Shown here in pieces: positions 1,146 through 63,151 of a stretch of 64,000 nt of DNA (the first letter of the stretch is position 1; each line of letters begins with the position of its first letter). The DNA lies in contig NZ_VCNK01000001.1 in NCBI RefSeq assembly GCF_006265095.1, positions 186,001 to 250,000 on the forward strand, given 5' to 3'. Made by a program: the position numbers and the translations under genes. A model generated the notes under the pieces. The model had not been told where the DNA came from. It worked only from the letters and a program-made list of their open reading frames with translations, and made no database searches. Source of the stretch: Phaeobacter sp. B1627. Lineage in GTDB: Bacteria; Pseudomonadota; Alphaproteobacteria; Rhodobacterales; Rhodobacteraceae.

Positions 1146-1175
1146 CAGAGGCAGGGCACGCAGAGGCAAGGCATA
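1146..1175. repeat. 15-bp tandem repeat, 2 copies plus degenerate flanks
   Basis: CAGAGGCAGGGCACG is followed directly by CAGAGGCAAGGCATA. Looser GGCA-rich units continue upstream to about 1090. It lies between the convergent genes aspS and the response regulator. Confidence 0.7.
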
Positions 1176-1573
1176 CGGGCGGCGCGGCCACTCCGGGGCG
1201 GGTGGGATATGGCACAGCGACCGGAGGTTTCCCGCCACAGCAGTTGTTGCAGTCCGACCGTGATCCTGGCCCTGATCCCGGCGCCGACCTCGACCCTGAT
1301 CCAGACCCGATTTCTGTCCAGATTCCGCTTCAGACCCTGGCACTGGGGTCATCAACAAGACGCCAATTCGGCCTCTGAACTGCGATGCCGGGCGCCTTGC
1401 TTCAGGCGCCGGGCGGCACCTTCGCGCGGCCCTTTCTCGACGTCAGCTGAACCAACGGCGGGTCCGGTTCGCCGGATCAGGGACCTCTTGCCGTCTGCGA
1501 GCCATCATCCGGGCCTGGACCACCAGCACGAGGGCAAGGGTTGTGAGCGTGATCAGAAGACTTTGGAGCACGG

Positions 1574-2293
1574 TCAGATCGCGATCTTTCGGTCCAGCCG
1601 CTCTTGCACCAGATCGGCAATATGGGCGGTGTCGACTGCGATCGGTCCCCCGGTTTGCCGGGTCTTGGCGAGACGTGCGGCAGCTGTGGCCAGAGGCGCG
1701 TCGCCGACGCTGCGGGCGACACCGCCCAGGAACTGGGCGAGATAATCAAGGGATTTTTCATCTGTCGCCTCGCCAAGAACATCTGCGGCATGGGCCATGT
1801 CATCGCGAAATGCGAGGATGTCCGGCACAACCGCCTCATCCGTGAGAGAGCGCGGCCCAAGAGGTTGGCGATCTGCGGGAAGGTTTGACAAGATGGCATT
1901 CTGGAACGCCGCCAAAGAGGTGATCGGTTTGGCGAGGAAACCGTCGGCGCCAGCCTCCAGGGCAGTCGTCTCGGCGTTTTCGTCACCTGAAACCCCCAGA
2001 ATGACCGAGACCCGCGGCGTCGTCATGGCGAGGCTCGCGATGAGCTCCGCGCCAGACCCGTCCGGCAGGCCCAGATCGATGATGACCACCGAGGGGCGGT
2101 ACACCTGCAGGTGGCGGCGCGCTGATTTCAAACTGTCTGCCCGGCGAATGCGCGCACCGCTGCGCAGACACAGAAGACGCATCGCTTCGCATGCGTAGCG
2201 GCTGTCCTCCACCACCAGGATAGTTAAACCCAAAAGGGGACGTCGACCATTGCCCAACCGTGTTGCGGAGGCAAAAAGATCCGAATCATCCAT
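1574..2293 (-). CDS. Orphan response regulator (REC domain plus unassigned C-terminal helical region)
   Basis: 239 aa. Residues about 22-140 form a receiver domain: acidic pair E29-D30, phosphoacceptor D73 in 'VVIIDLGLPDGSG', and the conserved Lys in 'GFLAKPITS' (K122). The remaining 100 residues look helical and match no DNA-binding or enzymatic output domain that I recognise; I see no HPt histidine motif. It is therefore probably a single-domain type regulator acting by protein contact. No histidine kinase is adjacent. The gene is divergent from methylmalonyl-CoA epimerase, with 186 bases between them for both promoters. Confidence 0.85.
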   Translation of the reverse strand: MDDSDLFASATRLGNGRRPLLGLTILVVEDSRYACEAMRLLCLRSGARIRRADSLKSARRHLQVYRPSVVIIDLGLPDGSGAELIASLAMTTPRVSVILGVSGDENAETTALEAGADGFLAKPITSLAAFQNAILSNLPADRQPLGPRSLTDEAVVPDILAFRDDMAHAADVLGEATDEKSLDYLAQFLGGVARSVGDAPLATAAARLAKTRQTGGPIAVDTAHIADLVQERLDRKIAI

Positions 2294-2479
2294 GTTCTGA
2301 TCCTCACTGATTACATGGGACGACGCTATGGATTCTGGGCTAACAATAGCTTAATGCGGCATACTGTGGCGTTGAGCCGCGCCGGAACACAGCTTTTACG
2401 TGTGAGGTCGGGCTTGCAAGAAACGTAGGGTTTTGATCTTTACGGTGTAATTTCGTTACAAGCCCAAAAGGAGCCCGCG

Positions 2480-2884
2480 ATGATCGGACGACTAAACCAT
2501 GTGGCCATAGCCGTGCCGGATCTCGACGCTGCTGTTGCGCAATACCGGGATGCCTTGGGGGCGACGGTCGGTGCGCCGCAGGACGAGCCGGATCATGGCG
2601 TCACAGTGGTGTTCATCGAATTGCCCAATACCAAGATCGAATTGCTGTATCCATTGGGAGAGACCTCGCCGATTCAGGGGTTTCTCGACAAAAACCCCTC
2701 GGGTGGCATCCATCATGTCTGTTATGAGGTCGATGATATTCTTGCGGCGCGCGATCATCTGCAGGCCCAGGGGGCGCGGGTTTTGGGCTCGGGAGAGCCG
2801 AAGATCGGGGCACATGGCAAACCTGTATTGTTCCTCCATCCCAAGGATTTCAATGGCTGTCTGGTCGAGCTGGAACAGGTTTGA
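2480..2884 (+). CDS. mce: Methylmalonyl-CoA epimerase (VOC fold)
   Basis: 134 aa, normal family length. Interconverts (2R)- and (2S)-methylmalonyl-CoA, feeding B12-dependent methylmalonyl-CoA mutase in propionate assimilation. Two glyoxalase/VOC repeats are visible: 'LNHVAIAVPDLDAAVAQYRD' at the N terminus and 'GGIHHVCYEVDDI' in the second half, with metal-binding His in both and the C-terminal Glu in 'GCLVELEQV'. AAAAGGAG seven bases before the ATG supports this start. A DUF1467 gene follows 67 bases later. The GTPase MeaB of the same pathway lies about 30 kb away in this window. Confidence 0.95.
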   Translation: MIGRLNHVAIAVPDLDAAVAQYRDALGATVGAPQDEPDHGVTVVFIELPNTKIELLYPLGETSPIQGFLDKNPSGGIHHVCYEVDDILAARDHLQAQGARVLGSGEPKIGAHGKPVLFLHPKDFNGCLVELEQV

Positions 2885-2951
2885 CAACAGGCCTGTGCGG
2901 ATGGATCAGGAAGGTCCTGCAGATCGGCGGGCAGAGCAGAAGGAATAGAAT

Positions 2952-3227
2952 ATGGGCATCACCTCCGCACTGGTTTTATACGCCGTCATCTGGTTTCTGA
3001 CGTTTCTCATCGTGATCCCGATCCGGTTGGAGACCCAAGGCGATCGGGGAGAGATCGTGCCGGGCACGCATGCGGGCGCGCCGGAGCAACATTTCCTGAA
3101 GCAAAAGGCGTGGATTACGACCGGGGTCGCCGCCGTGATCTGGTTGATCCTTGCGGCGATCATCCTGTCTGGTGTTGTCAGTGTGAATGATTTCGACTGG
3201 TTTGACCGGATCCCTGATCCGGACTGA
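2952..3227 (+). CDS. DUF1467 family small membrane protein
   Basis: 91 aa with two predicted membrane helices (about 5-23 and 53-75) separated by a polar loop containing 'IRLETQGDRGEIVPGTHAGAPEQ', which I recognise as the DUF1467 signature. Function unknown. It lies directly after methylmalonyl-CoA epimerase in the same direction, an arrangement I associate with alphaproteobacteria, so the two may be cotranscribed. The acidic tail 'DWFDRIPDPD' is probably soluble. Confidence 0.85.
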   Translation: MGITSALVLYAVIWFLTFLIVIPIRLETQGDRGEIVPGTHAGAPEQHFLKQKAWITTGVAAVIWLILAAIILSGVVSVNDFDWFDRIPDPD

Positions 3228-3269
3228 AGGGTCTTGTCTCAACCGATACGAGGGCGATTGCGGCGGTGT

Positions 3270-3463: not shown

Positions 3464-3498
3464 CCCAGCCTGCGCGGGGACCGGACCGGGAATATCAG

Positions 3499-4940: not shown

Positions 4941-4962
4941 GGGCCTGAACTGGGCCTGCACT
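4941..4962. repeat. 11-bp tandem repeat, 2 copies
   Basis: GGGCCTGAACT is followed by GGGCCTGCACT in the divergent spacer between the nitroreductase and DUF167 genes. It is the least striking of the arrays. Confidence 0.5.
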
Positions 4963-5053
4963 GGCGCCGCGCAGGCGCGGGCGAGGGGCGGCACACGTGC
5001 GGTACAGGCGCGCTGCAGATCCGGCGCGCAGGGACCGGAAGGAAAGGCACAGA

Positions 5054-6462: not shown

Positions 6463-6471
6463 GGGGCGCGC

Positions 6472-7351: not shown

Positions 7352-7415
7352 GATGAAGGCAGCGGTGGGGGCGACAGTGAAGGCAGCGGTGAAGGCAACT
7401 GTGAAGGCAGCAACG
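7352..7415. repeat. GTGAAGGCAGC tandem array, about 4 copies
   Basis: Units built on (G/A)TGAAGGCAGCGG recur at about 7352, 7377, 7389 and 7401, with spacing of 12-25 bases. They lie in the convergent spacer between DUF6455 and rimO, which has no visible terminator. Confidence 0.7.
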
Positions 7416-8880: not shown

Positions 8881-8995
8881 GACCCGTCCTATAGACCGGG
8901 CGAGGCGCCAAGGGAATGGAGGATTTCGCGGGGCAAATATGCACAGAGATCAGGCCTCGGGCCGCTGAGGCGCCACGCGGGAGGGGAGAGGCCTG

Positions 8996-9017
8996 CATGA
9001 TGGGAGCATGATGGGAG
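8996..9017. repeat. 11-bp perfect tandem repeat, 2 copies
   Basis: CATGATGGGAG occurs twice in succession in the divergent rimO/asmA-like spacer. Confidence 0.8.
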
Positions 9018-9039
9018 CGCCATATGCGTCCGGGCGGGA

Positions 9040-9083
9040 CAGCGTGCGAACAGCGTGCGAACAGGGACCGAACAGGGACCGGA
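9040..9083. repeat. 11-bp tandem array, 4 copies
   Basis: CAGCGTGCGAA occurs twice, followed by CAGGGACCGAA and CAGGGACCGGA. The rest of the 8881-9250 spacer holds only the neighbouring repeat at 8996 and presumably the divergent promoters; I see no gene in it. Confidence 0.85.
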
Positions 9084-9250
9084 CAGGGGGCGCACTGAGG
9101 CTGGACTGGGACGGGAGGGCGTCGGGGCTGTTGCTGACGCGCGGTTTTGTGGCGCGGTATGGATTGATCCCCCGGGCGGGGCTTGTAATCTGGGGCAAAG
9201 GTCTGATTTTGGGCCGAGAACCTGCAGCATTCCCAAAAGGGGCCCCCCTC

Positions 9251-11206: not shown

Positions 11207-11218
11207 AATCTGACGCGG

Positions 11219-11263
11219 CAGGACTGGCAGGACTGGCAGCGCTGGCGGGACTGGCAGGACCGG
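11219..11263. repeat. 9-bp tandem array, 5 copies
   Basis: CAGGACTGG, CAGGACTGG, CAGCGCTGG, CGGGACTGG, CAGGACCGG, starting 12 bases after the asmA-like stop codon. Its last unit runs into the family B element at 11260. Confidence 0.85.
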
Positions 11264-11302
11264 GGCGCTGCCCCGGACCCCGAGGTATTTTTGAAAAGAT
11301 GA
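11260..11302 (+). repeat. Family B intergenic repeat, copy 1
   Basis: A CCGGGG/CCCCGG hairpin is followed by ACCCCGAGGTATTTTTGAA and AAGATGAA. The same core occurs inverted at 25634-25679. The hairpin followed by a T-run may act as a terminator for the asmA-like gene. Confidence 0.65.
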
Positions 11303-13841: not shown

Positions 13842-13845
13842 GAAC

Positions 13846-16240: not shown

Positions 16241-16621
16241 CGCCTTATCGGTTTACTGTCTCTTGCTGTCTCTTGCCGTGTCTTATCGTCCCGGGGGAGA
16301 ATACAGCGAGCCCATTCCCCGGCATGTTCGCCCGCATTCTCTGCTTTGCCCCACTCAGGACTGAAAAACTATATCTGCCCGATCAGAGGTATTTGTATCA
16401 CACCTGTCTTTTGCGCCGCGGGTCTGGTCAGACGGGGCCGTCGTCGCGTGGTGCCCGCATTGCGAGGGCTAACACGGGATCGTTAACGACTTACGCGTTG
16501 ATTTGGGCGCAAATATGTCGAATTTGAGCAAATCTGTGCGGATCCGGGCAAGCGTGGAGGAGGGCAGATATCCTCCAACGGGATCACGGGACAAGAATAG
16601 GCGGTTTGAGCGGAAACGACA
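16241..16621. other. Divergent promoter interval, kpsT-like / UDG-family gene
   Basis: 381 bases with no supportable gene. Besides the array at 16256 it includes an AT-richer patch around 16470-16540 containing GTTAACGAC and TTGATTTGGGCGCAAATATG, probably promoter territory. I could not place defined -35/-10 boxes with confidence. Confidence 0.45.
16256..16285. repeat. 10-bp tandem array, 3 copies
   Basis: CTGTCTCTTG twice, then CCGTGTCTTA, ending 16 bases from the kpsT-like start codon, inside its presumed 5' untranslated region. Confidence 0.8.
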
Positions 16622-19210: not shown

Positions 19211-19492
19211 GGGGGGCCTCTTCTTCTTTCCGTGTCAGAATTCTGTGATGCTGCCATTTTGGAAACGGCGCGTCCTTTTCAGGTAGGGACGATAGCCAAA
19301 ATTCCAATGACTGGAAGGTCTGTCGGGTAAATTTTCCTGCTCGCGGCGCGCGCAGGGCGCCGCACTGGCAGAAAACACGCGAAAACACGCCCTGACCGCC
19401 CCGGCTTTGGCGACACGCTGGCTTGTGTGGTTTTCATTTCCGCAGGGGCCGTTATGTATGGGGGAGACCCCTCAAACCTGACTGGATCCCAC

Positions 19493-29470: not shown

Positions 29471-30016
29471 TCAGAACCGGCTCAGCAGGTCGCGAAGCTG
29501 CGGCTCGTCCACCAGGCCTGCGGCCTCTTTCGCCGGCATCCAGCGGCGGGTGCGTTGGTGCATTTCCGGAAACTCATCGAGAATTTCAATGACCTCGAGC
29601 CCGTAGACCAGGGTTTCAAGAGGTTCCAGAGTGCCGTTGTCCAGCCGTTTGTCATATTGGTAGCGGCCAAGGGGCATATCCTCGAACCGGCCTCGGCGCA
29701 CGCCTGCTTCTTCCCAGGCTTCCTGCGCGGCGCTTTCGGCGCTGGTCTTTCCGGCCATTGGCCAGCCCTTGGGCAGCACCCAGCGACCGGTGTCGCGGCT
29801 GGTGATCAGCAGCACTTCGCGCTCGCCTGCCGGTCGGTCTTGTGACTGGCCGTCCTGTGACTGGCCGTCCTGTTTCTGACTGTGCGGTGTTTGGCTGTGC
29901 TGTGTTTGGCCATCCTGTGTCTGGCGATAACACAGCGCGGCAACTTGCAGCCGGCGCGGGCGCGACAGCATGGGCTGGATCGTATGGGACCAAATCTTGT
30001 GCAGGACCTGTTGCAT
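29471..30016 (-). CDS. Nudix hydrolase with inserted pentapeptide repeats
   Basis: 181 aa. 'RRLQVAALCYR' and 'REVLLITSRDTGRWVLPKGWP' lead to the Nudix box 'GKTSAESAAQEAWEEAGV', close to the diphosphoinositol-polyphosphate phosphohydrolase-like type; the substrate is unknown. Between the first strand and 'EREVLLIT' a Gln-rich stretch of six five-residue repeats (DGQTQ, HSQTP, HSQKQ, DGQSQ and so on) is encoded by a 15-bp tandem array. It falls where a tight beta-turn would be, so it may form a flexible loop. The start at 30016 matches the family N terminus; its Shine-Dalgarno is weak. Confidence 0.87.
   Translation of the reverse strand: MQQVLHKIWSHTIQPMLSRPRRLQVAALCYRQTQDGQTQHSQTPHSQKQDGQSQDGQSQDRPAGEREVLLITSRDTGRWVLPKGWPMAGKTSAESAAQEAWEEAGVRRGRFEDMPLGRYQYDKRLDNGTLEPLETLVYGLEVIEILDEFPEMHQRTRRWMPAKEAAGLVDEPQLRDLLSRF
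29840..29929. repeat. 15-bp tandem array, 6 copies, in frame inside the Nudix gene
   Basis: On the plus strand the units include CTGTGACTGGCCGTC, CTGTTTCTGACTGTG, CGGTGTTTGGCTGTG and CTGTGTTTGGCCATC. On the coding (minus) strand each unit gives one five-residue block of the form D/H-G/S-Q-T/S-Q/P/K, and the frame is kept. Confidence 0.9.
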
Positions 30017-34548: not shown

Positions 34549-34630
34549 GCGTCTGCGTGCTGAGCTTTTGTCTAGGTCGGCCACGCCCTAGGTTCGGCCC
34601 CAGATAAAACCCGTCCGTGTTCAAAGCCCA

Positions 34631-34687
34631 GCCTCAAGAAACCAGCCGCGCGAAACTGGCCTCAGGAAACCGGCCTCACGAAAACAG
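34631..34687. repeat. 13-15-bp tandem array, 4 copies
   Basis: GCCTCAAGAAACCAG, CCGCGCGAAACTG, GCCTCAGGAAACCG, GCCTCACGAAAACAG. It lies between rpmB and the secreted Cys protein gene, upstream of the latter's start. Confidence 0.7.
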
Positions 34688-37182: not shown

Positions 37183-37217
37183 ACCGCAATTTCAGCCGCA
37201 ATTTCAGCCGCAAATAC
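37183..37217. repeat. 12-bp tandem array, about 3 copies, spanning a stop codon
   Basis: ACCGCAATTTC, AGCCGCAATTTC, AGCCGCAAATAC. The minus-strand stop codon of the adjacent small exported protein (37204-37206) lies within the array, so each TTTCAGC unit carries a stop triplet on the minus strand. Confidence 0.75.
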
Positions 37218-39520: not shown

Positions 39521-39526
39521 GTAGGA

Positions 39527-39551
39527 GGCCCGCATCAGCGGGCTTCGTTTT
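39527..39551 (+). terminator. Terminator after lepA
   Basis: GCCCGC-ATCA-GCGGGC hairpin followed by TTCGTTTT, 8 bases after the lepA stop codon. Confidence 0.8.
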
Positions 39552-40152
39552 ATCATCTGATCAAAAAAACGATTATTTCGTTTCCTCGGGAGTCGAATTG
39601 TCGGGATGCGGCGTGTCGAGAGCAGCAGGAGTGAAATTCTCCTCCGCTCGCGGGATCATGCCTGAATCAGATCGGCCCTGAATCAGATCGGCCCTGAATG
39701 AGATTGAGCATGAGTGGGATTTGACGCGAATTGACCGGAAATGAGCGGGCGTCCGCATCAATTCGGTCCTGCGGGGGGATTCTACGCGGTAATACGATCC
39801 TGGGTGGGTCCGGTGAGGCATTCGGAGTGGCCGGGCGGCTTTTCTATCTTTTAACTGGTCTCACCGGTGGTCTGCGGATTTGAGAAAAAATGCGGGGTGA
39901 ACAATCGCGCGCGCTGGCGGAGCGGGGGCCGCGCTCCACATCTGGCGTTTTGAAATGTAAGGCGGCCGCTGTCGTTTTGGCAAAGAGGCTCACAGGACCG
40001 GCCCCGTCCTCCTTGCGACTTTGAATAGCCCGGGCGGTTCGGCGGGGGACAAAATCCGCCATCCCGCGCCGCGCTGCCAATATTCGGAAAACCCCACCTG
40101 TGCGTCATCTCTCGCGGGAAATGGGGGGGAGGCGCTTGCTGCGGAGCCTTGA
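39552..40152. other. Gene-poor interval after lepA
   Basis: About 600 bases. Apart from the array at 39660 I find no supportable gene. Minus-strand open frames at 39573-39821 and 39844-40108 are Arg/Pro/Ser-rich, have no ribosome-binding site, and resemble nothing I know. It could hold decayed coding DNA. Confidence 0.5.
39660..39722. repeat. 15-16-bp tandem array, 3 clear and 1 weak copies
   Basis: GCCTGAATCAGATCG, GCCCTGAATCAGATCG, GCCCTGAATGAGATTG, then a weak AGCATGAGTGGGATTT, in the convergent spacer between lepA and the entericidin gene. Confidence 0.8.
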
Positions 40153-40290
40153 TCAGAGAGAGTTCTGAACGTTCTGCGCCGTGTTGGAGATTGCTTGTCC
40201 GGCCTGTTGCAGGTCGCGACCCGCCCCCTTGGTGGTTTCACAGGCTGCGAGACTCAGGATCATTAATCCAAAAAGAAGCGGGCGGATCAT
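40153..40290 (-). CDS. Entericidin-family small lipoprotein
   Basis: 45 aa. 'MIRPLLFGLMILSLAACETTKGAGRDLQQAGQAISNTAQNVQNSL' can be read in parts: a short signal with lipobox 'LSLAAC' (Cys17), then the entericidin pattern 'TTKGAGRDLQQAGQAISNTA'. Entericidins are tiny membrane lipoproteins of unclear role, in E. coli an antidote/toxin pair; here only one gene is present. GGAGA ten bases before the ATG supports the start, though the open frame continues to 40377. Confidence 0.88.
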   Translation of the reverse strand: MIRPLLFGLMILSLAACETTKGAGRDLQQAGQAISNTAQNVQNSL

Positions 40291-40706
40291 GGGCGGTGTT
40301 TCTCCGTTATGGGATCGGTCGGGCACCCGAAGCTGCTCCGTGTTCGCATAAATCTCTGATTGGCCGGAAAATGGCAAGCGGGATCAGTACAGATCCCCTG
40401 GTGTGATTTCGCGGTCGCAGCGACGTTTTGGCGATGCTTTATCGCCCAAAGGTTGTATGAGTGAGGTAGCATTTATGTGGGTTGGTGGCGCGGGACCGGT
40501 TGGTCGCGAAAGACAGGAGTGAAAGGTCAGGGCGTTGTACCAGCACGCCAGAGGCCGAAAAGCCGGGCGACATGCTGGCCGAAAAGCCGGGCCATATAGG
40601 GCCCGGGTCGGGGCCCTGGAAACAGACCCGCGTCGCAGGGCAGAATGCCCGGGAAAACACCCACACGACGATTGGAATGCTACTGGAGTGCTACGGGAGG
40701 TTGCAC
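40291..40706. other. Divergent spacer, entericidin / TraR-like gene
   Basis: 416 bases with no supportable gene. It contains a 24-bp duplication at 40553-40600, GC-rich palindromes (GGGCCC near 40600-40615) and presumably the promoters of both flanking genes. Confidence 0.5.
40553..40600. repeat. 24-bp tandem repeat, 2 copies
   Basis: Both units start GGCCGAAAAGCCGGGC; the last eight bases differ (GACATGCT versus CATATAGG). Confidence 0.75.
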
Positions 40707-40967
40707 ATGGATTATGTCCTTCAAAGGGAACGTCTTGAGACACGTCTCAGCGCGCTGTCCGCAGGGGTCCTTGCCGGGCAGGGGATTGCAGCATTGACGG
40801 AGGGGTCTGCGACCAACCGGGGGACACGTCTCGGCGCGATCCTGACGGCGCTCGACCGGCTGGAGACAGGCGAATATAGCTATTGCCGGATCTGTGGAGC
40901 GGATATTTCCGCCGATCATCTGATTGCCCATCCGGAGACCCCGTTCTGCGAATCCTGCTTTGGATGA
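40707..40967 (+). CDS. TraR/DksA-type C4 zinc-finger protein
   Basis: 86 aa. A short helical N terminus, then 'LDRLETGEYSYCRICGADISADHLIAHPETPFCESCF', the DksA/TraR zinc finger with all four Cys (CxxC ... CxxC). It lacks the long coiled-coil of DksA itself, so it is closer to TraR-like small members that bind RNA polymerase. GGGAGG six bases before the ATG at 40707 sets the start; the longer open frame upstream is rejected. Confidence 0.88.
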   Translation: MDYVLQRERLETRLSALSAGVLAGQGIAALTEGSATNRGTRLGAILTALDRLETGEYSYCRICGADISADHLIAHPETPFCESCFG

Positions 40968-41292
40968 CAGGCTCTGCCTGACAGCGTGAGGTCGGGGGCA
41001 AGTTCAGATAGCCCGGGTCCAGGGAGCCCAAGTTCAGGGTGGGCGAGACCAGGGAGTCCAAGCGATCGGGCGGCTCAGCGCGTCTCCGGGTGAGGCAGCG
41101 TGACCATGTGCCGCCCGGCGCAGCAGAGGTGGCGATATCCCAGCGATAAATCGACGGTGGCTGCAGGGAGAGCGGCATTTCACAGGTGCGCCAGGGGCAC
41201 ATTGCGTGGCATTGCATCAAAGGGGGCGTTGCCGTGCCGGGCACAATGTGGCAGAACCGCGTGCAAATGCCTGAACATATAGAGTTTAGCAG
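40968..41292. other. Spacer before PCMT-like gene
   Basis: 325 bases without a gene. A roughly 22-bp imperfect repeat (GTCCAGGGAGCCCAAG and GACCAGGGAGTCCAAG) occurs at about 41018 and 41047. I see no clear promoter. Confidence 0.45.
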
Positions 41293-41946
41293 ATGACTGA
41301 TTTCTCCGAGCGCCGCCGAATGATGGTAGACACCCAGATCCGACCGGCTGATGTGACCAAATACCCGATTATCGAAGCGCTTCTGGCTGTCCCGCGCGAG
41401 AATTTCGTGCCCGACTCTCAGGCCGAAGTGGCATATGCCGATCAATGCGTCTCGTTGGGGCAGGATCGGGTTGTGCCCGAGCCGCGCACGCTGGCCAAGA
41501 TGCTGGATGCGCTGGATGTCCGCGCGGACGAGCTGGTGCTGGACGTGGCCTGCGGTCTGGGCTACTCGACCTCGGTCATTGCGCGACTGGCGCAGATGGT
41601 GATCGGCGTCGAAGAGGACGAGACATTCGCATCAGATGCACAGCAGTCGCTGTCCGACAGCAATGCCGACAATGCCATCGTGCATCAGGGGCCGCTGGTG
41701 GACGGGGCGGCCGAGCACGGCCCATATGATGTGATCATCATCGAAGGGGCAGTTGAAGTTGTGCCTGAGGGCCTTCTGGCGCAGCTCAAGGACGGCGGCC
41801 GGATCGCGGCGTTGTTCATGTCCGGCGCATTGGGAGAGGTCAGGATCGGCTACAAGAGCGGTGATCGAATCTCCTGGCGTTTTGAATTCAATGCAGGCGC
41901 GCCGGTGTTGCCTGGTTTTGCCAAAGCGGCTGAATTCGCGCTCTAG
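41293..41946 (+). CDS. Protein-L-isoaspartate O-methyltransferase-like protein
   Basis: 217 aa. The overall PCMT layout is kept: N-terminal 'RRMMVDTQIRPADVTKYPIIEALLAVPRENFVP', SAM-binding 'LVLDVACGLGYSTSVIARLA' and 'VIGVEEDE'. However the active-site block, normally GQTIS.P, reads 'GQDRVVPEP', without the conserved Thr-Ile-Ser. Repair of isoaspartate is therefore doubtful. It sits directly upstream of tolC and the PopZ-like gene in the same direction. Confidence 0.83.
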   Translation: MTDFSERRRMMVDTQIRPADVTKYPIIEALLAVPRENFVPDSQAEVAYADQCVSLGQDRVVPEPRTLAKMLDALDVRADELVLDVACGLGYSTSVIARLAQMVIGVEEDETFASDAQQSLSDSNADNAIVHQGPLVDGAAEHGPYDVIIIEGAVEVVPEGLLAQLKDGGRIAALFMSGALGEVRIGYKSGDRISWRFEFNAGAPVLPGFAKAAEFAL

Positions 41947-42090
41947 CTGCCTCCGAAAGTGTCGTGTGCCCGTGTTTTTGAGTGGTAATTCAAGGCTGCC
42001 CCTTTTCAACTTCATGTGACATTCACATATGTCAGTCGCAATGACACCGTAAAATGGGTCCGAAGACCCCAAACAGACTGAGGCGACAGT

Positions 42091-43512
42091 ATGCGAGGAC
42101 AACTAATTTCGAAACGGATCAAGGCTTTTGCGGCGCTTGGCGTTCTGACCGCTGCTGCGGTTAACGCGTCCTTGGTTCGGGCCGATAATGTGACCGACGC
42201 GATGATCGGGGCGTATAATTCAAGCGGGCTGCTGGAACAGAACCGGGCGCTGCTGCGGGTGGCGGACGAGGGAGTCGCGGTTTCCGTGGCGGGGTTGCGG
42301 CCTGTTGTCTCGACCGCCCTGTCGATTGCGCGGGACTACAACCGGACTGGCCTAGATGCCGCCGGTGCACGATCCAGCCATAGTACCGGTGCTTCTGTCA
42401 GCCTCAGCCTCAACTGGCTCCTGTTTGACAACGGGGCAACTCAACTGGATACCAAGGCGGCACAGGAGACCGTTCTGGCCACCCGCCAGACCCTGCTCGA
42501 TGTGGAGCAGCAGGTTCTGTTCGCCGCGGTCCAGGCCTATGTCAACGTGCTGACACAGCAGGACACGGTGGCCTTGCGGCAGAATAACCTGCGTCTTCTG
42601 CAGGAAGAGCTGCGCGCCGCGAACGACCGGTTCGAAGTGGGGGAAGTCACCCGCACGGACGTGGCGCTGGCCGAAAGCCAGGTGGCCGAGGCACGTGCTA
42701 ATCTGACCGACGCACAGGGCGATCTGCTCGCGGCGCGGGCGACCTATGAAGAAGTGGTCGGACGCGCCCCCGGTGCTGTCAATGCCTACCCACCGCTGCC
42801 ACGCCGGTCGGCAAACCTTGATGCGGCTCAAGCACTTGCGCTGCGCGGTCATCCGAGCCTGCGGGCCCAGCAGCATGCGGTCAAAGCGGCTCAGTTGACG
42901 GCTGATAGCGCGCTGCGGGACATGGGGCCTTCGGTCAGCTTTTCTGCCAGCGCATCGCATGGCGATGTGCACGGCAGCAATGCGGAGAGCGACAACTTTG
43001 ATCTGGGCCTGACATTGTCCCAGACCATTTATGCGGGCGGCGCGCTTGCGGCGGCCCGTCGGATTGACTTGGCGCGGCTCGATGCCGAACGGGGGGCCTT
43101 GTTGTCCACACAGCGCAGTATCACCAGCAACACCGCAAGCGCCTATACCGCCTTCGAGACCTCGGCTGCGAGCCTGGTGTCGTCGAACGAACGGGTACGG
43201 GCCGCGCAGGTCGCTTTTGATGGGGTCCGCGAAGAGGCAACCCTGGGGTCCCGGACCACATTGGACGTCTTGCAGGCCGAACAAGAACTGCTGGACGCAC
43301 AGACCGCACGCCTGCAGGCGCGGGCAACTCAGGCGCTGGCGGCCTATGATCTGCTGCAGGCGCAGGGGCTGTTGACGGCTGAGAACCTCAATCTGGCGGT
43401 CGAACGCTACGACCCTGAAATCTATTACAATCAGGTACGGTCTGCCCCTGCCTTCGTGACCAAACGGGGTCAGGATCTGGATCGTGTGCTCAAGGCACTG
43501 GGAAAGAACTGA
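42091..43512 (+). CDS. tolC: TolC family outer-membrane efflux/secretion channel
   Basis: 473 aa. N-terminal signal ending near 'NASLVRADN', then two OEP repeats, e.g. 'LNWLLFDNGATQLDTKAAQETVLATRQTLLDVEQQVLFAAVQAYVNVL' and 'GLTLSQTIYAGGALAAARRIDLARLDAER', with 'RFEVGEVTRTDVALAESQVAEARANL' and 'TLGSRTTLDVLQAEQELLDAQ' as the mirrored coiled-coil hairpins. It serves type I secretion or RND pumps; no inner-membrane partner is adjacent. Upstream gap to the PCMT-like gene is 144 bases. Confidence 0.94.
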   Translation: MRGQLISKRIKAFAALGVLTAAAVNASLVRADNVTDAMIGAYNSSGLLEQNRALLRVADEGVAVSVAGLRPVVSTALSIARDYNRTGLDAAGARSSHSTGASVSLSLNWLLFDNGATQLDTKAAQETVLATRQTLLDVEQQVLFAAVQAYVNVLTQQDTVALRQNNLRLLQEELRAANDRFEVGEVTRTDVALAESQVAEARANLTDAQGDLLAARATYEEVVGRAPGAVNAYPPLPRRSANLDAAQALALRGHPSLRAQQHAVKAAQLTADSALRDMGPSVSFSASASHGDVHGSNAESDNFDLGLTLSQTIYAGGALAAARRIDLARLDAERGALLSTQRSITSNTASAYTAFETSAASLVSSNERVRAAQVAFDGVREEATLGSRTTLDVLQAEQELLDAQTARLQARATQALAAYDLLQAQGLLTAENLNLAVERYDPEIYYNQVRSAPAFVTKRGQDLDRVLKALGKN

Positions 43513-43587
43513 TAATCCTAGGTTACTGTTGTGTGAATGGTGCAAGCTGGCTAAGCTTGCCGCAAGAGGTGAGCTTGGCCATAAAAA

Positions 43588-44802
43588 ATGTCTGAACCCG
43601 TTACACATGCAGAAATCGAAGACGTCCTGTCGTCGATCCGTCGTCTCGTGAGTGAGACAGGGCGGTCTGACGGCGAAACCGGCGCGGCCAAAGCCTCGCC
43701 TTCCGCCAGCTCTCGCCTGGTGCTGACACCGGCCCTGCGGGTCCCGGCGCAGGAGGATATCTCCGAAACGGCAGAGCCCCCAGAGAAAGACCTGACTGCT
43801 GCTGCAGCCCGTGCAGCTGCGGTAGGGCCGCTCGATTCTGTGCAGAATTCTGTGCAGAACTCCGGGGAGGCTGCGGAGTCTATAGCGCAAAGCAAGCCAC
43901 GGACTTTGATGGCAAAGAGGCCTGCGGGGGCGTCGGAAAACGACCTGGCCAGCAGCCCGGCCGCTGATGATACGACCCCCTTGGTGCCTGAAACGTCGCC
44001 AGCGTCTGATGCCCGGATTTCGCACGGATCGCGGGGCAGGGATGCTCCGCAGGCTGCCACAATTCATGATTTGCACGCCTCAGTAAAGTCATCCCCGACA
44101 CAGTCCGCCCCAGAACAGTCTGAATCGGTGGAGAGGCAGATCTCGCCCGAACCGCTGGAGGTCAACGAAGATCGGATTGCCTCGGATGAGGCCCCGTGGC
44201 GCGACCCCAATGCGCGGCTCTATGATGCCGCGCAATCCGACGCCGCGGCGGCTCAGGCCGACGCCGCGCAGCAAGACCGGGATCAGGCGGTCTCCGCTGC
44301 GGCGACTGTGGAGGCAGAAGAAGAGGCACAAGCACCGCGTGAACGCCTGTCCCGTGTGGCAGCTGTCGTGCGTAGAATTGCCGAGCTGGAAACGGCGGAA
44401 CGGGCCGAGGCGAGCCAGCGCGCTGACCCAGCGGTCGGGCCCAAGGTGCCGGAGATGAACGAGGATGAGATCGAAGCGGTTCCGCCGAGCGGGCCTGCGG
44501 TCGAGACCATCCAGTGGGAAGATCATGTATCGGCTGGCGACAGCGCTGCGGCAACCGTGGCAGAGGATGACCAGACGCTGGAAAATGCGCAGGCCCTCGC
44601 GCAAGAGGCGGCGGAAGATGTTGCCCTTGAGGCACTGGACGCAGAGGATGGGTTCCTCGACGAGGACAGCCTGCGGGATCTGGTGGCAGATATTGTCCGG
44701 GAGGAGCTGCAGGGGCCTCTGGGGGAGCGGATCACCCGAAATGTGCGCAAGCTGGTGCGGCGCGAAATCCAACGGGCACTTGCCGCGCAGGATCTGATCT
44801 GA
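43588..44802 (+). CDS. DUF2497/PopZ-like protein
   Basis: 404 aa, very acidic. The N terminus 'IEDVLSSIRRLVSETG' and the C terminus 'LRDLVADIVREELQGPLGERITRNVRKLVRREIQRAL' match the ends of PopZ, the polar organiser of Caulobacter, while the middle 300 residues are disordered and rich in Ala, Glu, Ser and Pro. A pole-organising role is inferred. A 12-bp perfect duplication adds 'SVQNSVQN' in frame near residue 85. The longer acidic linker exceeds that of Caulobacter PopZ. Confidence 0.82.
   Translation: MSEPVTHAEIEDVLSSIRRLVSETGRSDGETGAAKASPSASSRLVLTPALRVPAQEDISETAEPPEKDLTAAAARAAAVGPLDSVQNSVQNSGEAAESIAQSKPRTLMAKRPAGASENDLASSPAADDTTPLVPETSPASDARISHGSRGRDAPQAATIHDLHASVKSSPTQSAPEQSESVERQISPEPLEVNEDRIASDEAPWRDPNARLYDAAQSDAAAAQADAAQQDRDQAVSAAATVEAEEEAQAPRERLSRVAAVVRRIAELETAERAEASQRADPAVGPKVPEMNEDEIEAVPPSGPAVETIQWEDHVSAGDSAAATVAEDDQTLENAQALAQEAAEDVALEALDAEDGFLDEDSLRDLVADIVREELQGPLGERITRNVRKLVRREIQRALAAQDLI
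43835..43858. repeat. 12-bp perfect tandem repeat, 2 copies, in frame
   Basis: ATTCTGTGCAGA twice inside the PopZ-like gene, encoding part of 'SVQNSVQN' in the disordered linker. Confidence 0.8.
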
Positions 44803-48866: not shown

Positions 48867-49643
48867 CTAGCCGGGATTTGGCCATGTCACGGTCGCCGCT
48901 CCGGCCTTCATCGGGCCTTTTGCCCGATCGTAGCGCAGATAGGCAATCGCCGCTCCACCGGACTGGGTGTACAGCGTGCCTGCCGCCTTGCCATTTGCCG
49001 TGATCTCGGCCCCGACCTCTGTGTGACCGTCCTCTGTGTGACCGTCCTCTGTGGGGCCGTCGATTTTGACCTGCTGCAGCCCTTTGCGGAGCTCTGTCTT
49101 GTGCTTCATCCGGGCGGTCACTTCCTGACCGACATAGCAGCCCTTGCGGAAATCCACCCCATGGAGCCGTTCAAAGCCCGCCTCGAGGATGTAGCTGTCG
49201 GGCGTCAATTCCACCCCTGTTTCCGGGATGCAATGGGCCACGCGTATGGCGTCCCAGTCGCTTCCGTCATCGCCAGACTCATCGCCATAGAGCCGCCAAC
49301 CGAGCGCCGCGTGGCGCGGATCGGCAAAGGCCCCCTCCGGTGGCGCACCCGTGCCCCGACGCAGCTTAAGGCCGGTGGCCTCGATCGTGACATCGGCCCG
49401 CAGACGGTACATGGAGAGCCGTTTCTGCACCCCATCCCCGAGGTCCTCCGCGACATCCAGCAGCACCGCGTCGCTGTCCGCGCAGGGAACCAGAAAGAAA
49501 TCCGCCAGATATTTTCCCTGCGGCGTCAGAAGGGCAGCGTAGACGAGACCTTGATCCAGCTTTTTGACATCATTCGTGACCAAGCCCTGCAGAAACGTGT
49601 GACTGTCGGGGCCACTGAGGCGAAGGATGCGGCGGTCGGACAT
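48867..49643 (-). CDS. ygfZ: Folate-binding YgfZ (GcvT-like) protein
   Basis: 258 aa. Iron-sulfur cluster-related folate-binding protein. The diagnostic motif is 'DFRKGCYVGQEVTARMKHK' (KGCYxGQE); the N terminus 'ILRLSGPDSHTFLQGLVTNDV' is also typical. Just after 'LRKGLQQVKIDG' there is a repeated TEDGH insert encoded by a 15-bp array. GGGAGAG upstream fixes the ATG at 49643 rather than 49694. Confidence 0.92.
   Translation of the reverse strand: MSDRRILRLSGPDSHTFLQGLVTNDVKKLDQGLVYAALLTPQGKYLADFFLVPCADSDAVLLDVAEDLGDGVQKRLSMYRLRADVTIEATGLKLRRGTGAPPEGAFADPRHAALGWRLYGDESGDDGSDWDAIRVAHCIPETGVELTPDSYILEAGFERLHGVDFRKGCYVGQEVTARMKHKTELRKGLQQVKIDGPTEDGHTEDGHTEVGAEITANGKAAGTLYTQSGGAAIAYLRYDRAKGPMKAGAATVTWPNPG
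49016..49060. repeat. 15-bp tandem array, 3 copies, in frame inside ygfZ
   Basis: CCTCTGTGTGACCGT twice, then CCTCTGTGGGGCCGT. On the coding strand it gives GPTEDGHTEDGHTE, lengthening a loop before the C-terminal barrel. Confidence 0.9.
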
Positions 49644-49679
49644 TTTGCTCTCCCTTTCGGATCGGACAGGGTGTCGGAC

Positions 49680-49701
49680 CCAAGATGTGACCAAGATGTG
49701 A
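49680..49701. repeat. 11-bp perfect tandem repeat, 2 copies
   Basis: CCAAGATGTGA twice, about 40 bases upstream of the ygfZ start codon, in the gap after the ABC exporter gene. Confidence 0.75.
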
Positions 49702-49778
49702 CTCCGGGCCCGGCAAAGTTCAAGCGCTCATCTGAGCAAGCAGTCCCCCAAACTGCAAGCCAGGTGTGAGCGAGACGG

Positions 49779-51641
49779 TCAGCCAAACATGCGACGGGCA
49801 AAGCGGCGCAGCAGGCCCGGCTGTTCCCCGTCCGGCTGTGACCCTCTCCCGCGTGCGACCTGCGCCTGAACGCCGTCGGTATCGACCAGGGTCTTGCCGT
49901 CCTGAAACTGCAACCGGTAGAGATCGGCGTATATGCCGCCCCGGGACAGAAGCTCCTCGTGGCGGCCCTCGTCCATCACCCTGCCACGTTCCATGACAAT
50001 GATCTTGTCGGCGGAGCGGATTGTGGACAGGCGGTGCGCGATCACCAGCGTAGTGCGGCCGCCCGACAATTTTTCCAGCGCCTTCTGCACCACCGTTTCT
50101 GATTGGGCATCGAGGGCCGAGGTCGCTTCATCCAGCAGCAGGATCGGCGTGTCGCGCAGGATTGCCCGCGCGATCACCACCCGTTGCCTCTGGCCGCCGG
50201 ACAGAGCAGAGCCACGTGGGCCGACCCGGGTTTCCAACCCCTCTGGCATCTTGTGCAGGAAATCGGAGACATGAGCCGCATCCAGCACCTCGCGCAGCCG
50301 GTCCTCGGTGACATCCGTTCGGCCCAGAAGGATGTTTTCCTTCAGCGTTTCGTCAAACAGCAGCGCATCTTGGGTGACGACGGAAAACAGATCCCGCAGC
50401 TCGCCGAGATCGATGTCGCGCACTTCGACGCCGTTCAGGGTGATCGACCCCTCCTGAGGGTCGACAAGCCGGGTCAACAAGTTGAAAATCGTGGATTTCC
50501 CGGCCCCCGATGCGCCGACCAGCGCGGTTGTCTGGCCCGCTTCGGCGTGCAGGGACAGATCCTGCAGGATCTGCGCTTCCCCATAGGACAGGTTCACCCC
50601 GGACAGGCGGATGTCCGGCAGGCCCTGTGGCGTCGGTTTCGGATCAGGCGGGGACAGCAGAGTGATTGGCGCTTCCATCAGCTCCTTGATCCGTTCCATG
50701 GCGGCGGCGGCGGCCTGCCAGATCCCCATGATGGAGGCCAGGCGGCGCATCGGGTCAAAGGCGAGACCGATGGCCGTGAAAAAGCTCATGAATTCGCCGA
50801 CGGTCTTTTCCCCTTCGATGATTTCACGGCCCCCGAACAGGATCACACACATGACCCCGACCCCCGCCATCAGGTCCACCAGGCCCGAGGTCGAGGAGGC
50901 CCCGAAGGCCGCCCGGATCTGCGCGCGCACAAAGGCCGATGTGGCGGCCCGGTAGCGGCCGGTCTGATAGGTTTCGAGGCGGTTCAGCTTGATCGGGACG
51001 ATGCCATGGAACACCTCGTCCAGCCGCGTGGCCTGCACCGCTCCGAGGTCGCGGGCCTGGCTGGCTTTTTTGCGCACGTAGCGCTGTACGATGGACAGCG
51101 GCAGCACCAGTGCCGGGACCCCAACCAGCATGATCGCGGTCCAGCGCCAGTCCACGCTGATCGCGACCCCGAGAACCGCCACCAACTGTGCCACGTCGCG
51201 GCCAGAGCCGGTGATCAGCGCCTGCCAGACCTGATTGATGGCCGCCACATCGGTCTGAACCCGTTGGATCAGAAATCCGGGCGGATGGTTTTGGTGAAAG
51301 CTCGCGTCCTGATGGATCAGCCGGTCCAGCATATCGGTCCGCATATGGGCCTCGGAGCGCTGGTTGATGGTTGCAAGGATCACTTTCTGGGTGACGGAGC
51401 TGATCCCGCGGAGCAGAAAAATGCCGAAAAACGCCAGGCTGACCCAGACCAGCGCGGTACTGCTGCCATCGACGAACACCAAATCGAACATCGGCTGCAT
51501 CATGTAGCTGAGCGCACCAACGGAGGCACCTTCCATCAGCATGAAGACAAGGGCGATCGACAAAAGCCCGATGTGGTGGCGCAGATATCCGCGCCAGAGC
51601 CAACGCATCAACACGCGGGAGGAGGTGTATTCAGTGCTCAT
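49779..51641 (-). CDS. ABC exporter with fused membrane and ATPase domains (MsbA-like)
   Basis: 620 aa half-transporter. Six membrane helices (about 15-300), then an ATPase domain with Walker A 'ALVGASGAGKSTIFNLL', signature 'LSGGQRQRVVIARAIL' and Walker B 'PILLLDEATSALD', H-loop 'VIAHRLST'. The closest type is MsbA/lipid or drug exporter; substrate unknown. A 35-residue tail follows the ATPase. It is divergent from the class V aminotransferase gene. Confidence 0.93.
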   Translation of the reverse strand: MSTEYTSSRVLMRWLWRGYLRHHIGLLSIALVFMLMEGASVGALSYMMQPMFDLVFVDGSSTALVWVSLAFFGIFLLRGISSVTQKVILATINQRSEAHMRTDMLDRLIHQDASFHQNHPPGFLIQRVQTDVAAINQVWQALITGSGRDVAQLVAVLGVAISVDWRWTAIMLVGVPALVLPLSIVQRYVRKKASQARDLGAVQATRLDEVFHGIVPIKLNRLETYQTGRYRAATSAFVRAQIRAAFGASSTSGLVDLMAGVGVMCVILFGGREIIEGEKTVGEFMSFFTAIGLAFDPMRRLASIMGIWQAAAAAMERIKELMEAPITLLSPPDPKPTPQGLPDIRLSGVNLSYGEAQILQDLSLHAEAGQTTALVGASGAGKSTIFNLLTRLVDPQEGSITLNGVEVRDIDLGELRDLFSVVTQDALLFDETLKENILLGRTDVTEDRLREVLDAAHVSDFLHKMPEGLETRVGPRGSALSGGQRQRVVIARAILRDTPILLLDEATSALDAQSETVVQKALEKLSGGRTTLVIAHRLSTIRSADKIIVMERGRVMDEGRHEELLSRGGIYADLYRLQFQDGKTLVDTDGVQAQVARGRGSQPDGEQPGLLRRFARRMFG

Positions 51642-53167: not shown

Positions 53168-53215
53168 GTTTCCCGCTGTGTTTTCCCCTGTGTTTTCCCC
53201 TGTGTTGCCGCCTGT
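53168..53215. repeat. 12-bp tandem array, 4 copies
   Basis: GTTTCCCGCTGT, GTTTTCCCCTGT, GTTTTCCCCTGT, GTTGCCGCCTGT, followed closely by a second unrelated array at 53234. Confidence 0.85.
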
Positions 53216-53233
53216 CGTTTGTCCGTTGAGCGT

Positions 53234-53333
53234 GGTCAAGAAGGTGCACGATCAAGAAGGTGCACGATCAAGTAGGCGAGCGGTCAAGCAGGCGCGGTCA
53301 ACAAGGATGGGCGGTCAACAAGGACGAGCGATC
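53234..53333. repeat. 14-17-bp tandem array, about 6 copies
   Basis: Units GTCAAGAAGGTGCAC, GATCAAGAAGGTGCAC, GATCAAGTAGGCGAGCG, GTCAAGCAGGCGCG, GTCAACAAGGATGGGCG, GTCAACAAGGACGAGCG. With the previous array it fills most of the 344-base convergent gap (53094-53437), which has no gene or clear terminator. Confidence 0.85.
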
Positions 53334-55832: not shown

Positions 55833-55895
55833 GGGGCATTCGGTTCAGGTCGGCGCCACCGGGGCGCGCCGACCTGTGGCGACGACAGTCAACGG

Positions 55896-55952
55896 GCGCT
55901 GATCACGGGGCGCTGATTACAGGGGAGTTGATCACGGGGAGCTGAACACGGG
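55896..55952. repeat. 14-15-bp tandem array, 4 copies
   Basis: GCGCTGATCACGGG, GCGCTGATTACAGGG, GAGTTGATCACGGG, GAGCTGAACACGGG in the convergent gap between the crotonase and fda genes. Confidence 0.85.
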
Positions 55953-56053
55953 CGCGCGCGAACCCAAGAACGGCAGCGGCGGGGGACGGAAAGAGGGGCC
56001 AAGCCTGGCGGGGCGGCCCCTTCTCACACCGGGTCACCGCCCGATTGTCGCGC

Positions 56054-56956: not shown

Positions 56957-57312
56957 GACGCGCGGCCTCCTTCGGAAATAAAAAAGTAGTATTGTCGCCT
57001 CTTCTATACCGGCGCTTGTGACAGAAACAACAAATGTATTCAGATGGTTGCGCTAACGTGAGGGGGTATGGTGCGGAAAGAGGGATTTGGCGTCACTGCC
57101 TGCTGGTTTCGGTGACACCAGTAAAGCCGCAGGCGATCTCCGGAGGGGCTGGCAATGGCATCCACGGGCCAGGCGATTGGGCGACAACAGAGGCTTTGCC
57201 GGGCGGTGGGAGACCGCATGCAGGGCTGGCCCTCCCGCCGTGTCACAGAGATCGCCGTGTCACAAAGATCGGGGTGCCAGAGGGGGGCTGGACAATCGGG
57301 CGCAGATTGCCG
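56957..57312. other. Spacer upstream of fda
   Basis: 356 bases without a gene: the fda promoter region (AT-rich near 56980-57050) and the 17-bp repeat at 57238. Confidence 0.5.
57238..57271. repeat. 17-bp tandem repeat, 2 copies
   Basis: CCGTGTCACAGAGATCG followed by CCGTGTCACAAAGATCG, between fda and the hypothetical gene at 57313. Confidence 0.8.
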
Positions 57313-60391: not shown

Positions 60392-60408
60392 GGCCAACGC
60401 CGCGAACC

Positions 60409-61005: not shown

Positions 61006-61258
61006 CGTAAAAGCTCCGGTCAAAATGGGACAGTAATCTGGGGTCCGGGACTGATATGGGGAAAACTCTGCGCGAGGCCAAAGGGCCGGGCAAGGGATAA
61101 TTCCGTGAAATCTCGCGCCCGGGAAGCCGGGGACGCGGACCCTGAACCACCGGCTTTGCCTCGGGCAAACTGGCGGTGAGGCTAAATTGCTGTTTCATCG
61201 CACGAAGGGCCTCGTTATACGGGGCTCTGGATTTGAACCCGCATGCAAAGGACCGGAT

Positions 61259-62554: not shown

Positions 62555-62802
62555 TGGCCGAGTCTGAGGGGCTGAGCTATCGCGCCCGCAGGATCTGGGC
62601 GTTGGTTATCCTGCTGGTCGGGATGCCGCTCTATATTGTCGCGGCGGTGACGGTTCTGAGCTTTCTTGATCGCCCGCCCTTGTGGTTGGAGCTATTGATC
62701 TATGTGGCGCTGGGGGTGATCTGGGTCCTGCCCTTCAAATTTGTGTTCCGCGGGGTCGGCAAGGAAGATCCGGATGCCCTGCATGACGAGCATCGGAAAT
62801 AG
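62554..62802 (+). CDS. DUF2842 family membrane protein
   Basis: 82 aa with two membrane helices, 'RRIWALVILLVGMPLYIVAAVTVL' and 'LWLELLIYVALGVIWVLPFKFVF', and a 'GVGKEDPDALHDEHRK' tail, which I recognise as DUF2842. Function unknown. The ATG uses the last base of purA's TGA, so it is translated with purA. Confidence 0.9.
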   Translation: MAESEGLSYRARRIWALVILLVGMPLYIVAAVTVLSFLDRPPLWLELLIYVALGVIWVLPFKFVFRGVGKEDPDALHDEHRK

Positions 62803-62817
62803 GCGCGCGGGGAGGGG

Positions 62818-62927
62818 CTCCCGCCAAGGCTCCCAGCCCCGATGGGACTGATCCCCTTTGTTGGGCCCGGCGCGGCGCCCCTTTCAGGGGCGCCGCGCCG
62901 GTCGCTTTGGGCTTTGCCCAAAGCGAA
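62818..62927. repeat. Modular hairpin element, family A copy 5
   Basis: Begins GCTCCCGCCAAGG. The core TTTGTTGGGCCCGGCGCGGC leads into a 15-bp hairpin CCGGCGCGGCGCCCC/GGGGCGCCGCGCCGG (about 62867-62901) and a 10-bp one CGCTTTGGGC/GCCCAAAGCG (about 62903-62925). It is between the convergent DUF2842 and 63155 genes; no matching right end was found. Confidence 0.7.
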
Positions 62928-62980
62928 AACCCTCAATGATAGCAATGTCGTGGAGTGGTGGGCTTGGATTTGCACTCGGC

Positions 62981-63020
62981 ACCGAGACGGCTCTGACGGG
63001 ACGGAGACGGCTCTGACCGG
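62981..63020. repeat. 20-bp tandem repeat, 2 copies
   Basis: Two 20-bp units, both carrying GAGACGGCTCTGAC, in the same convergent gap as family A copy 5. Confidence 0.75.
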
Positions 63021-63106
63021 CGGCCGACGGGCGGGGCGGGGCCTCTGCCCACGCAGAACGCCGCCGCCCCGCAAGGGCTGCGTTCTGGGGCGCGGCGCGA
63101 CCCATA

Positions 63107-63151
63107 GCGGATCGGGAGGCGGCGGATCGGGACGCGGCGCACCGGGGCGCA
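63107..63151. repeat. 15-bp tandem array, 3 copies
   Basis: GCGGATCGGGAGGCG, GCGGATCGGGACGCG, GCGCACCGGGGCGCA, ending 4 bases before the 3' end of the 63155 gene. Confidence 0.8.

Follow-up and report, generated by a model that had tools for sequence, protein, structure and literature searches.

Introduction

Short tandem duplications are a known class of mutation. The microhomology-mediated tandem duplications of fission yeast and the flap-type duplications of the FEN1/rad27 system are short, often lie between microhomologies and occur at many unrelated sites; those of rad27 yeast are often longer, and both systems are eukaryotic. Here we describe short tandem arrays that lie between the genes of Phaeobacter sp. 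B1627, beginning with a stretch of 64,000 nucleotides (contig NZ_VCNK01000001.1, positions 186,001 to 250,000; hereafter the window, to which plain coordinates refer) and extending to other parts of this genome and to its relatives. We report a lineage-limited excess of such arrays, together with their size class, a motif bias and an array-poor zone. PolA, the bacterial counterpart of flap processing, is full length in B1627.

Bacterial minisatellites and variable-number tandem repeat (VNTR) loci, whose copy number differs between strains, resemble the B1627 arrays in having tandem units. In an Escherichia coli study of such loci, 12-18 of the variable loci tabulated were minisatellites, their units being at least 20 bp long and at least 90% identical (PMC2884548). 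In contrast, the density in B1627 exceeds one array per intergenic kb, most arrays having 2-4 copies and 9-18-bp units, and the arrays of its sister species are different. The TAACTGA repeats of marine Beggiatoaceae are likewise abundant intergenic direct repeats of 2-6 copies in marine bacteria; however, they consist of one recurring heptamer, mostly just upstream of start codons (PMC4679880), whereas in B1627 the unit changes from array to array and density peaks past stop codons. A further likeness is found in a phage-plasmid repressor of Tritonibacter mobilis, a genus name also attached to two congeners of B1627. There, 15 of 19 mutations were indels, 9 of these 15 at tandem repeats, although these mutations come from one repressor region of evolving lines, and the example given is a homopolymer change rather than a 9-18-bp intergenic duplication (PMC10090143). 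Among the matches listed from the open-licence PMC literature, we found no description of such arrays in Roseobacters or Alphaproteobacteria.

Intergenic tandem arrays are in excess in the window and elsewhere in the genome

The original prediction listed 24 tandem arrays in the window and ascribed them to frequent local duplication. Using Tandem Repeats Finder (TRF) at a minimum score of 30, we obtained 57 rows in the window, or 51 once overlaps were merged, and 19 of the 24 listed coordinates matched a TRF row to within a few bases. The other five sites (1146, 40553, 60354, 60409 and 62981) fell below a score of 30 and are imperfect repeats by eye only; at 62981, two copies of GAGACGGCTCTGAC are visible in the sequence. 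Three of the 24 sites lie within predicted genes (6502, 29840 and 49016), and site 6502 (TRF score 31, coding) is at chance level although it is among the 19 matched sites.

Unless another threshold is given, counts of arrays required a TRF score of at least 40 and a period of at least 7, periods below 7 being excluded. By this measure the window holds 21 intergenic arrays, whereas 50 shuffled replicates averaged 0.5 and never exceeded 3; in these replicates, codons were shuffled within predicted genes and dinucleotides between genes. This ~40-fold excess bears out the expectation that array density would exceed that of composition-matched sequence. The 6 coding arrays lie inside the shuffle range (mean 3.0, maximum 7), and the excess in the window is thus intergenic.

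The same was seen outside the window. In a 400-kb sample of B1627, drawn as twenty additional 20-kb stretches on contigs C1 and C70, we counted 88 intergenic arrays versus 2.4 in shuffles (10 shuffles). The coding arrays of this sample also exceeded codon shuffles (58 versus 18.4), and the coding density of B1627 is at the level of its relatives (0.163/kb versus 0.174/kb in named loci). Across all stretches of B1627, which sample ~0.73 of 4.35 Mb, 150 intergenic arrays occur in 119.8 kb (1.25/kb), of which 129 lie outside the window in 104.6 kb, and 5.7% of intergenic bases are inside arrays. Later counts passed over any stretch containing over 100 N, or consisting of N by more than half. One short contig stretch of this genome (L231, on contig C120) contains no G or C at all and is presumably masked; it was likewise excluded from later counts.

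The predicted range from near-perfect to decayed copies was found across arrays. Among 250 merged arrays, coding arrays included, matches were 100% in 42, 90-99% in 72, 80-89% in 94 and below 80% in 42.

The excess is limited to a group of related genomes

We compared B1627 (G000) with its sister species (G010), two allied congeners (G015 and G001), further congeners and a set of named relatives consisting of 80 named loci around lepA. One genome per species was used; the congener samples are unequal and some are small, and G014 was left out of array counts. Array density per intergenic kb was 1.53 in B1627 (first 464 kb), 0.76 in G010, 0.63 in G015 and 0.62 in G001, and ranged from 0 to 0.40 in the 13 other sampled congeners. 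The pooled densities of these 13 congeners and of the 80 named loci were 0.14-0.22. The named loci together hold 56 arrays in 386.7 kb; 44 of the 80 have none, and the highest reaches 1.16/kb with 4 arrays. Thus, as the original prediction would have it, B1627 exceeds the other bacteria sampled.

Gene prediction relied on a codon-model caller of our own, which overstates intergenic DNA in G006, G013 and G017. For this reason we added counts with retrained gene models and counts that use no gene calls. With models retrained on each stretch, and restricted to stretches of at least 12 kb with at most 20% intergenic DNA, densities per intergenic kb were 1.28 in B1627, 0.83 in G010, 0.96 in G015 (2 stretches, 4 arrays), 0.49 in G001, 0.14 in the 13 congeners and 0.18 in the named loci. 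Without gene calls, arrays with a score of at least 50 and a period that is not a multiple of 3 numbered 79.5 per Mb in B1627, 58.7 in G010, 32.3 in G001 and G015 combined, 12.1 in the 13 congeners and 19.5 in the named loci; the B1627 count (58) compares with 6 in one whole-sequence shuffle of 729 kb.

A lepA tree (single gene, midpoint-rooted), in which G009 is absent, gave the order (G001,(G015,(B1627,G010))) with support of 85/83, 98/98 and 100/100, and placed G017 and G011 outside the group of B1627. Set beside the densities, this order indicates that array density rises towards the B1627/G010 pair. Taken together, these findings demonstrate that the excess of intergenic short tandem arrays is real, strong and limited to a lineage. 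Chance, base composition or faulty assembly almost certainly does not account for it: five of the 24 listed sites and site 6502 are weak and the coding arrays of the window lie within shuffles, yet the intergenic excess withstood shuffling, two trainings of the gene model, a count free of gene models and comparison with the 80 named loci, it recurs in the separate genome of G010, and most arrays are shorter than 100 bp, which makes assembly collapse or expansion unlikely.

Duplications fall in a narrow size class

How short a TRF array can be depends in part on the score threshold, whereas a count of exact duplications is free of that problem. Exact intergenic duplications with a period of 4-7 bp were near shuffle level, with a modest excess at 5 and 6, in B1627 and named relatives alike; at 8 bp they were raised in both (7 versus 2.0 in shuffles for B1627, 20 versus 7.1 for named relatives). 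Those of 9-18 bp numbered 52 in 108.5 kb of B1627, and in a list starting at 9 bp, 53 of 54 were 9-18 bp. Exact duplications of at least 10 bp were 15-20 times denser in B1627 than in named relatives (48 in 108.5 kb versus 8 in 362 kb), and per Mb of intergenic DNA they numbered 401 in B1627, 331 in G010, 71 in the other 15 congeners and 26 in named relatives.

An extra match (m) of at least 4 bases, taken as microhomology, was present in 21 of 52 two-copy exact duplications in B1627 and in 12 of 29 in G010, compared with ~2% expected without homology by a formula for equal base frequencies. In another 23 of the 52 in B1627, m was 0-1. We read these figures as slippage or re-priming that would often, albeit not always, use microhomology.

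Arrays turn over between sister species

In 141 orthologous intergenic pairs from B1627 and G010, we found 25 arrays in the former and 24 in the latter. By a crude criterion, which asked for periods differing by at most 3 and for a common 8-mer, no array was shared. The unit CCAAGATGTGA at 49680 is double in B1627 and single in both G010 and G015, and in the interval 49638-49784 G010 carries a 7.6-copy array of a 17-bp unit where B1627 has the 11-bp duplication. Reciprocally, G010 has two copies of a 22-bp unit of which B1627 has one. A single-copy state in relatives, as predicted for duplication by slippage, was therefore seen at several sites, among them 49680 and the 22-bp unit of G010; the flanks of other arrays are too diverged to tell. 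Absence of sharing is not absolute, since in the convergent region L028:3385-3679 both sisters have related units that repeat the end of the neighboring gene with its stop codon (TCCTGATC, gene strand).

Frequent local duplication, rather than a transposed family, thus accords with the excess over shuffles and relatives, with the differences between sisters and with the perfect copies in 42 of 250 arrays. A dispersed repeat family, such as repetitive extragenic palindromic (REP) sequences, bacterial interspersed mosaic elements (BIME) or other small dispersed repeats, was rejected, as units change from site to site; the sharing of 3-6-base words does exceed expectation. An array of clustered regularly interspaced short palindromic repeats (CRISPR) was also rejected: units stand head to tail, without spacers, and a different unit makes up each array.

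Arrays are densest downstream of genes

In B1627, array density was 3.05/kb in convergent, 1.24/kb in co-directional and 0.64/kb in divergent intergenic regions. Where the nearest gene end was a stop codon, arrays covered 9-13% of the sequence up to 175 bp away; where it was a start codon, they covered 2-6% up to 150 bp away. Coverage was lower farther out. Of the exact coding duplications of at least 10 bp in B1627, 13 of 16 were multiples of 3, compared with 20 of 48 intergenic ones; in the window, two arrays with 15-bp units lie in predicted genes (29837 and 49012). Placement on the stop side and in-frame duplication within genes are what purifying selection acting on a general process predicts.

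Origin of the arrays

We consider that the arrays are probably the trace left by a duplication mutator peculiar to this clade, one that would work through slippage or re-priming. On this account, short tandem duplications, mostly of 9-18 bp, would arise independently at many places in B1627 and G010 and more weakly in G015 and G001. During replication or repair synthesis the new strand would slip back, or be re-primed, ~10-17 bases behind, partly at microhomologies of at least 4 bp and partly without any; a duplicated unit might then expand to several copies and decay by substitution. Purifying selection would purge most events in coding frames and promoters, leaving survivors between genes and most of all downstream of stop codons. 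Both the molecular step and the view that a rate was raised, rather than removal relaxed, are our inference from these patterns.

We also asked whether a sequence-preferring enzyme, priming, nicking or breaking and filling at CAG-rich sites (CAGTC, CCAGTC, ACTGG), might copy the 10-17 bp that separate two nicks, or a primer from its template. The motif would then be the signature of this enzyme, and the array-poor zone described below a place where it is inactive. The narrow size class favors such an enzyme, as does the composition of the units. The original prediction held that units share no sequence from place to place, which proved incorrect at the level of short motifs: relative to non-array intergenic DNA, the 150 units of B1627 are enriched for CAG (114 versus 75 expected), CAGTC (20 versus 4.4), ACTGG (19 versus 3.6), CCAGTC (10 versus 1.1) and CAGTCC (12 versus 1.3). 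The words were discovered on 105 units of B1627 and then checked on the 63 units of G010, where CAGTC (7 versus 1.7), ACTGG (6 versus 1.7) and CCAGTC (4 versus 0.6) were again enriched and CAGTCC weakly so (2 versus 0.4); the test used 300 draws, giving a P floor of 0.003. After removal of arrays that overlap stop codons, CAG, CAGTC and ACTGG were still enriched in both genomes, while CCTGA was not in B1627. On the other hand, just 20 of 150 units contain CAGTC, and CAG/CTG showed no evident preferred position relative to the junction (26 hits in 33 duplications of B1627 and G010 with m of at most 2), on which ground a primer-boundary model was rejected. CAGTC occurred twice versus 0.3 expected among 16 units of G001 and was absent from 14 units of G015, both too few to judge. 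Furthermore, the control words derive from non-array intergenic DNA, and the bias could partly reflect sequences that tolerate duplication. We therefore regard a sequence-preferring enzyme as unlikely.

Mutation might instead be ordinary, with the clade failing to remove duplications under weaker intergenic selection (e.g. through small effective population size). That arrays are located where the weakest constraint is expected fits this explanation. In contrast, a single size class is in excess, duplications of 4-7 bp being near shuffle level while those of at least 10 bp exceed named loci 15-20 times. The array-poor zone, on the 489-kb contig C70, argues in the same direction. Seven 20-kb stretches within C70:1-170,000 (L024, L193, L025, L194, L026, L195 and L027) hold 2 arrays versus 23.3 expected from the other stretches of B1627, stratified by gene orientation and GC (Poisson 2e-8, for a zone picked after the counts were known). 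Substitution identity between B1627 and G010 is nevertheless the same in the zone (0.853, 75 intergenic pairs) and in other aligned regions (0.854, 66 pairs), with 2 versus 23 arrays in B1627 and 7 versus 17 in G010. Relaxed removal as the cause thus seems to us distinctly unlikely.

In G010, the block corresponding to approximately the first 85 kb of the zone has 3 arrays (13.3 kb). The adjoining block, reaching slightly beyond the zone, has 12 (15.2 kb), and the block corresponding to C70 from 200 kb onward has 24 (17.8 kb), such that only the first part of the zone is sparse in both sisters. The tested part of the zone (8 kb of L026) was found in 6 of 6 congeners searched, and ten zone proteins from four stretches matched ordinary metabolic, transport and regulatory families. 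A gradient from origin to terminus was considered and rejected. Twenty-six peptides of B1627 were mapped on G009, whose dnaA lies at base 66 of a 3.2-Mb contig; dense stretches fell at ~0.18, 0.51, 0.64-0.67, 2.02-2.19 and 2.68 Mb, whereas the sparse stretches lay at 2.62-2.87 Mb. This is no simple gradient, although several probes lay on another contig, were weak or could not be placed (three sparse stretches among the latter), and the order of G009 may differ from that of B1627. As a separate observation, lepA of window 38000-43758 maps at 0.72 Mb in G009, while sequence from ~41.2 kb on maps at 2.10 Mb on the opposite strand, indicating that gene order does differ between the two genomes.

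Still less probable, in our estimation, are functional arrays, i.e. terminators, Rho-utilisation (rut) sites or sites for regulators or nucleoid proteins kept by selection. Their location downstream of stop codons and the weak common motif would suit such roles, and intergenic pairs with arrays in both sisters numbered 10 versus 6.0 expected (P 0.02, with hand-set weights for length, class and zone), so that some intergenic regions may be prone to arrays. However, units differ at nearly every site and none was scored as shared between sisters. The transcript strand showed no consistent C-over-G or pyrimidine skew, and predicted RNA folding was slightly weaker than background (-0.228 versus -0.260 kcal/mol per nt, lengths being inexactly matched); a role in Rho utilisation or termination was rejected on these grounds.

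Returning to a duplication mutator, several observations count against it or go beyond it. The responsible gene was not found among the MutS, Ku, PolA, RecJ, XseA and SbcD families. MutS, PolA, RecJ and XseA are present in B1627 and G010, as in nearly all relatives searched, PolA and XseA being missed in G014 (67% complete), and SbcD was above cut-off only in G015 among 25 searched. A mismatch-repair or Pol I mutator through loss or truncation of mutS or polA was rejected, as the two match their families over almost the whole length in B1627 and G010, and so was duplication by fill-in during non-homologous end joining, as no Ku was found in B1627 or in 15 congeners searched (G016 and G017 were outside this search). 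The unusually long open frame at xseA of B1627 seems to consist of an intact gene preceded by open sequence, and the G010 frame is equally long. As to the duplication ends, 23 of 52 have m of 0-1, and large values of m may partly represent a partial third copy. In-frame coding duplications of at least 12 bp numbered 21.3 per Mb in B1627, compared with 12.0 for G010, 10.0 for the other congeners and 15.1 for named relatives. This rate is hardly raised in B1627 and not in G010, so that duplication may act on non-coding DNA alone, instead of acting everywhere and being purged from coding sequence. Finally, plain slippage leads one to expect neither the CAGTC/ACTGG bias nor the array-poor zone; together with the size class, these are features beyond the predictions of ordinary slippage.

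Individual arrays of the window

From the left, arrays in convergent intergenic regions comprise a 14-bp unit in 2.2 copies (1041..1071; TRF score 41), a 12-bp unit in 3.5 copies (1261..1302; score 40), a 12/24-bp unit beside rimO, identified by a RimO NCBIfam match (7354..7411; scores 67 and 88), and a 9/27-bp unit holding GGACTGGCAGGAC that starts 10 bp past a stop codon (11217..11278; scores 67 and 72). Farther along are a convergent array of a 12/24-bp unit (53169..53220; scores 67 and 69) and a convergent array of a 14-bp unit in 4.4 copies (55894..55957; score 75). Just after the former comes an array of a different, 16-bp unit in 2.6 copies (53236..53276; score 75).

Divergent regions contain an 11-bp unit in 2.2 copies (4941..4964; score 41), a 10-bp unit in 2.9 copies (16256..16284; score 44) and an exact 10-bp duplication that is present as one copy in the G010 alignment (19371..19390; score 40). 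The divergent region that separates rimO from a gene weakly matching AsmA holds exact copies of an 11-bp unit (8995..9018; score 48) and two overlapping 11-bp arrays (9039..9088; scores 53 and 56).

In co-directional regions we found 4.3 decayed copies of a 14-bp unit (34628..34687; score 64), 2.7 decayed copies of a 15-bp unit (40999..41039; score 47) and an exact 12-bp duplication (43835..43859; score 50). The lepA gene is flanked upstream by 2.5 perfect copies of a 12-bp unit, partly present once in G010 and G015 (37184..37213; score 60), and downstream by 2.8 copies of a 16-bp unit (39661..39704; score 81). An 11-bp unit in 2.5 copies lies just upstream of a predicted gene (40673..40699; score 40), a 17-bp unit in 2.1 copies between predicted genes (57236..57271; score 65), and an array of a 15-bp unit in 2.9 copies reaches to within 4 bp of the stop codon of predicted gene 63155-63874 (-) (63107..63150; score 60). 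The exact 11-bp duplication at 49680..49702 (score 46), a single unit in G010 and G015, adjoins the position of the 17-bp array peculiar to G010. Within genes, a 15-bp unit in 5.9 copies lies in predicted gene 29471-30016 (-) and is mostly a gap in G010 (29837..29925; score 87), and a frame-keeping 15-bp unit in 3.3 copies lies in predicted gene 48867-49643 (-) and is a gap in G010 and G015 (49012..49061; score 79).

Implications

In its boldest form, which we put forward tentatively and with considerable doubt, the clade might carry a dedicated or accidental generator of tandem duplications, with its own 9-18-bp class and a CAG-centred preference (CAGTC/ACTGG), active in most of the chromosome sampled yet scarcely so in a zone of ~170 kb, and continually rewriting intergenic DNA, above all 3' of genes. 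The findings point to a clade in which much of the change between genes consists of such duplications, which keep to a narrow range of unit lengths, favor certain sequences and are scarce in one region. B1627 and G010, set against G005, G007 and G009, offer a natural comparison for what normally restrains duplications. Within the clade, intergenic alignment, promoter comparison and dating by indels may mislead, and the arrays themselves are candidate markers for strain typing.

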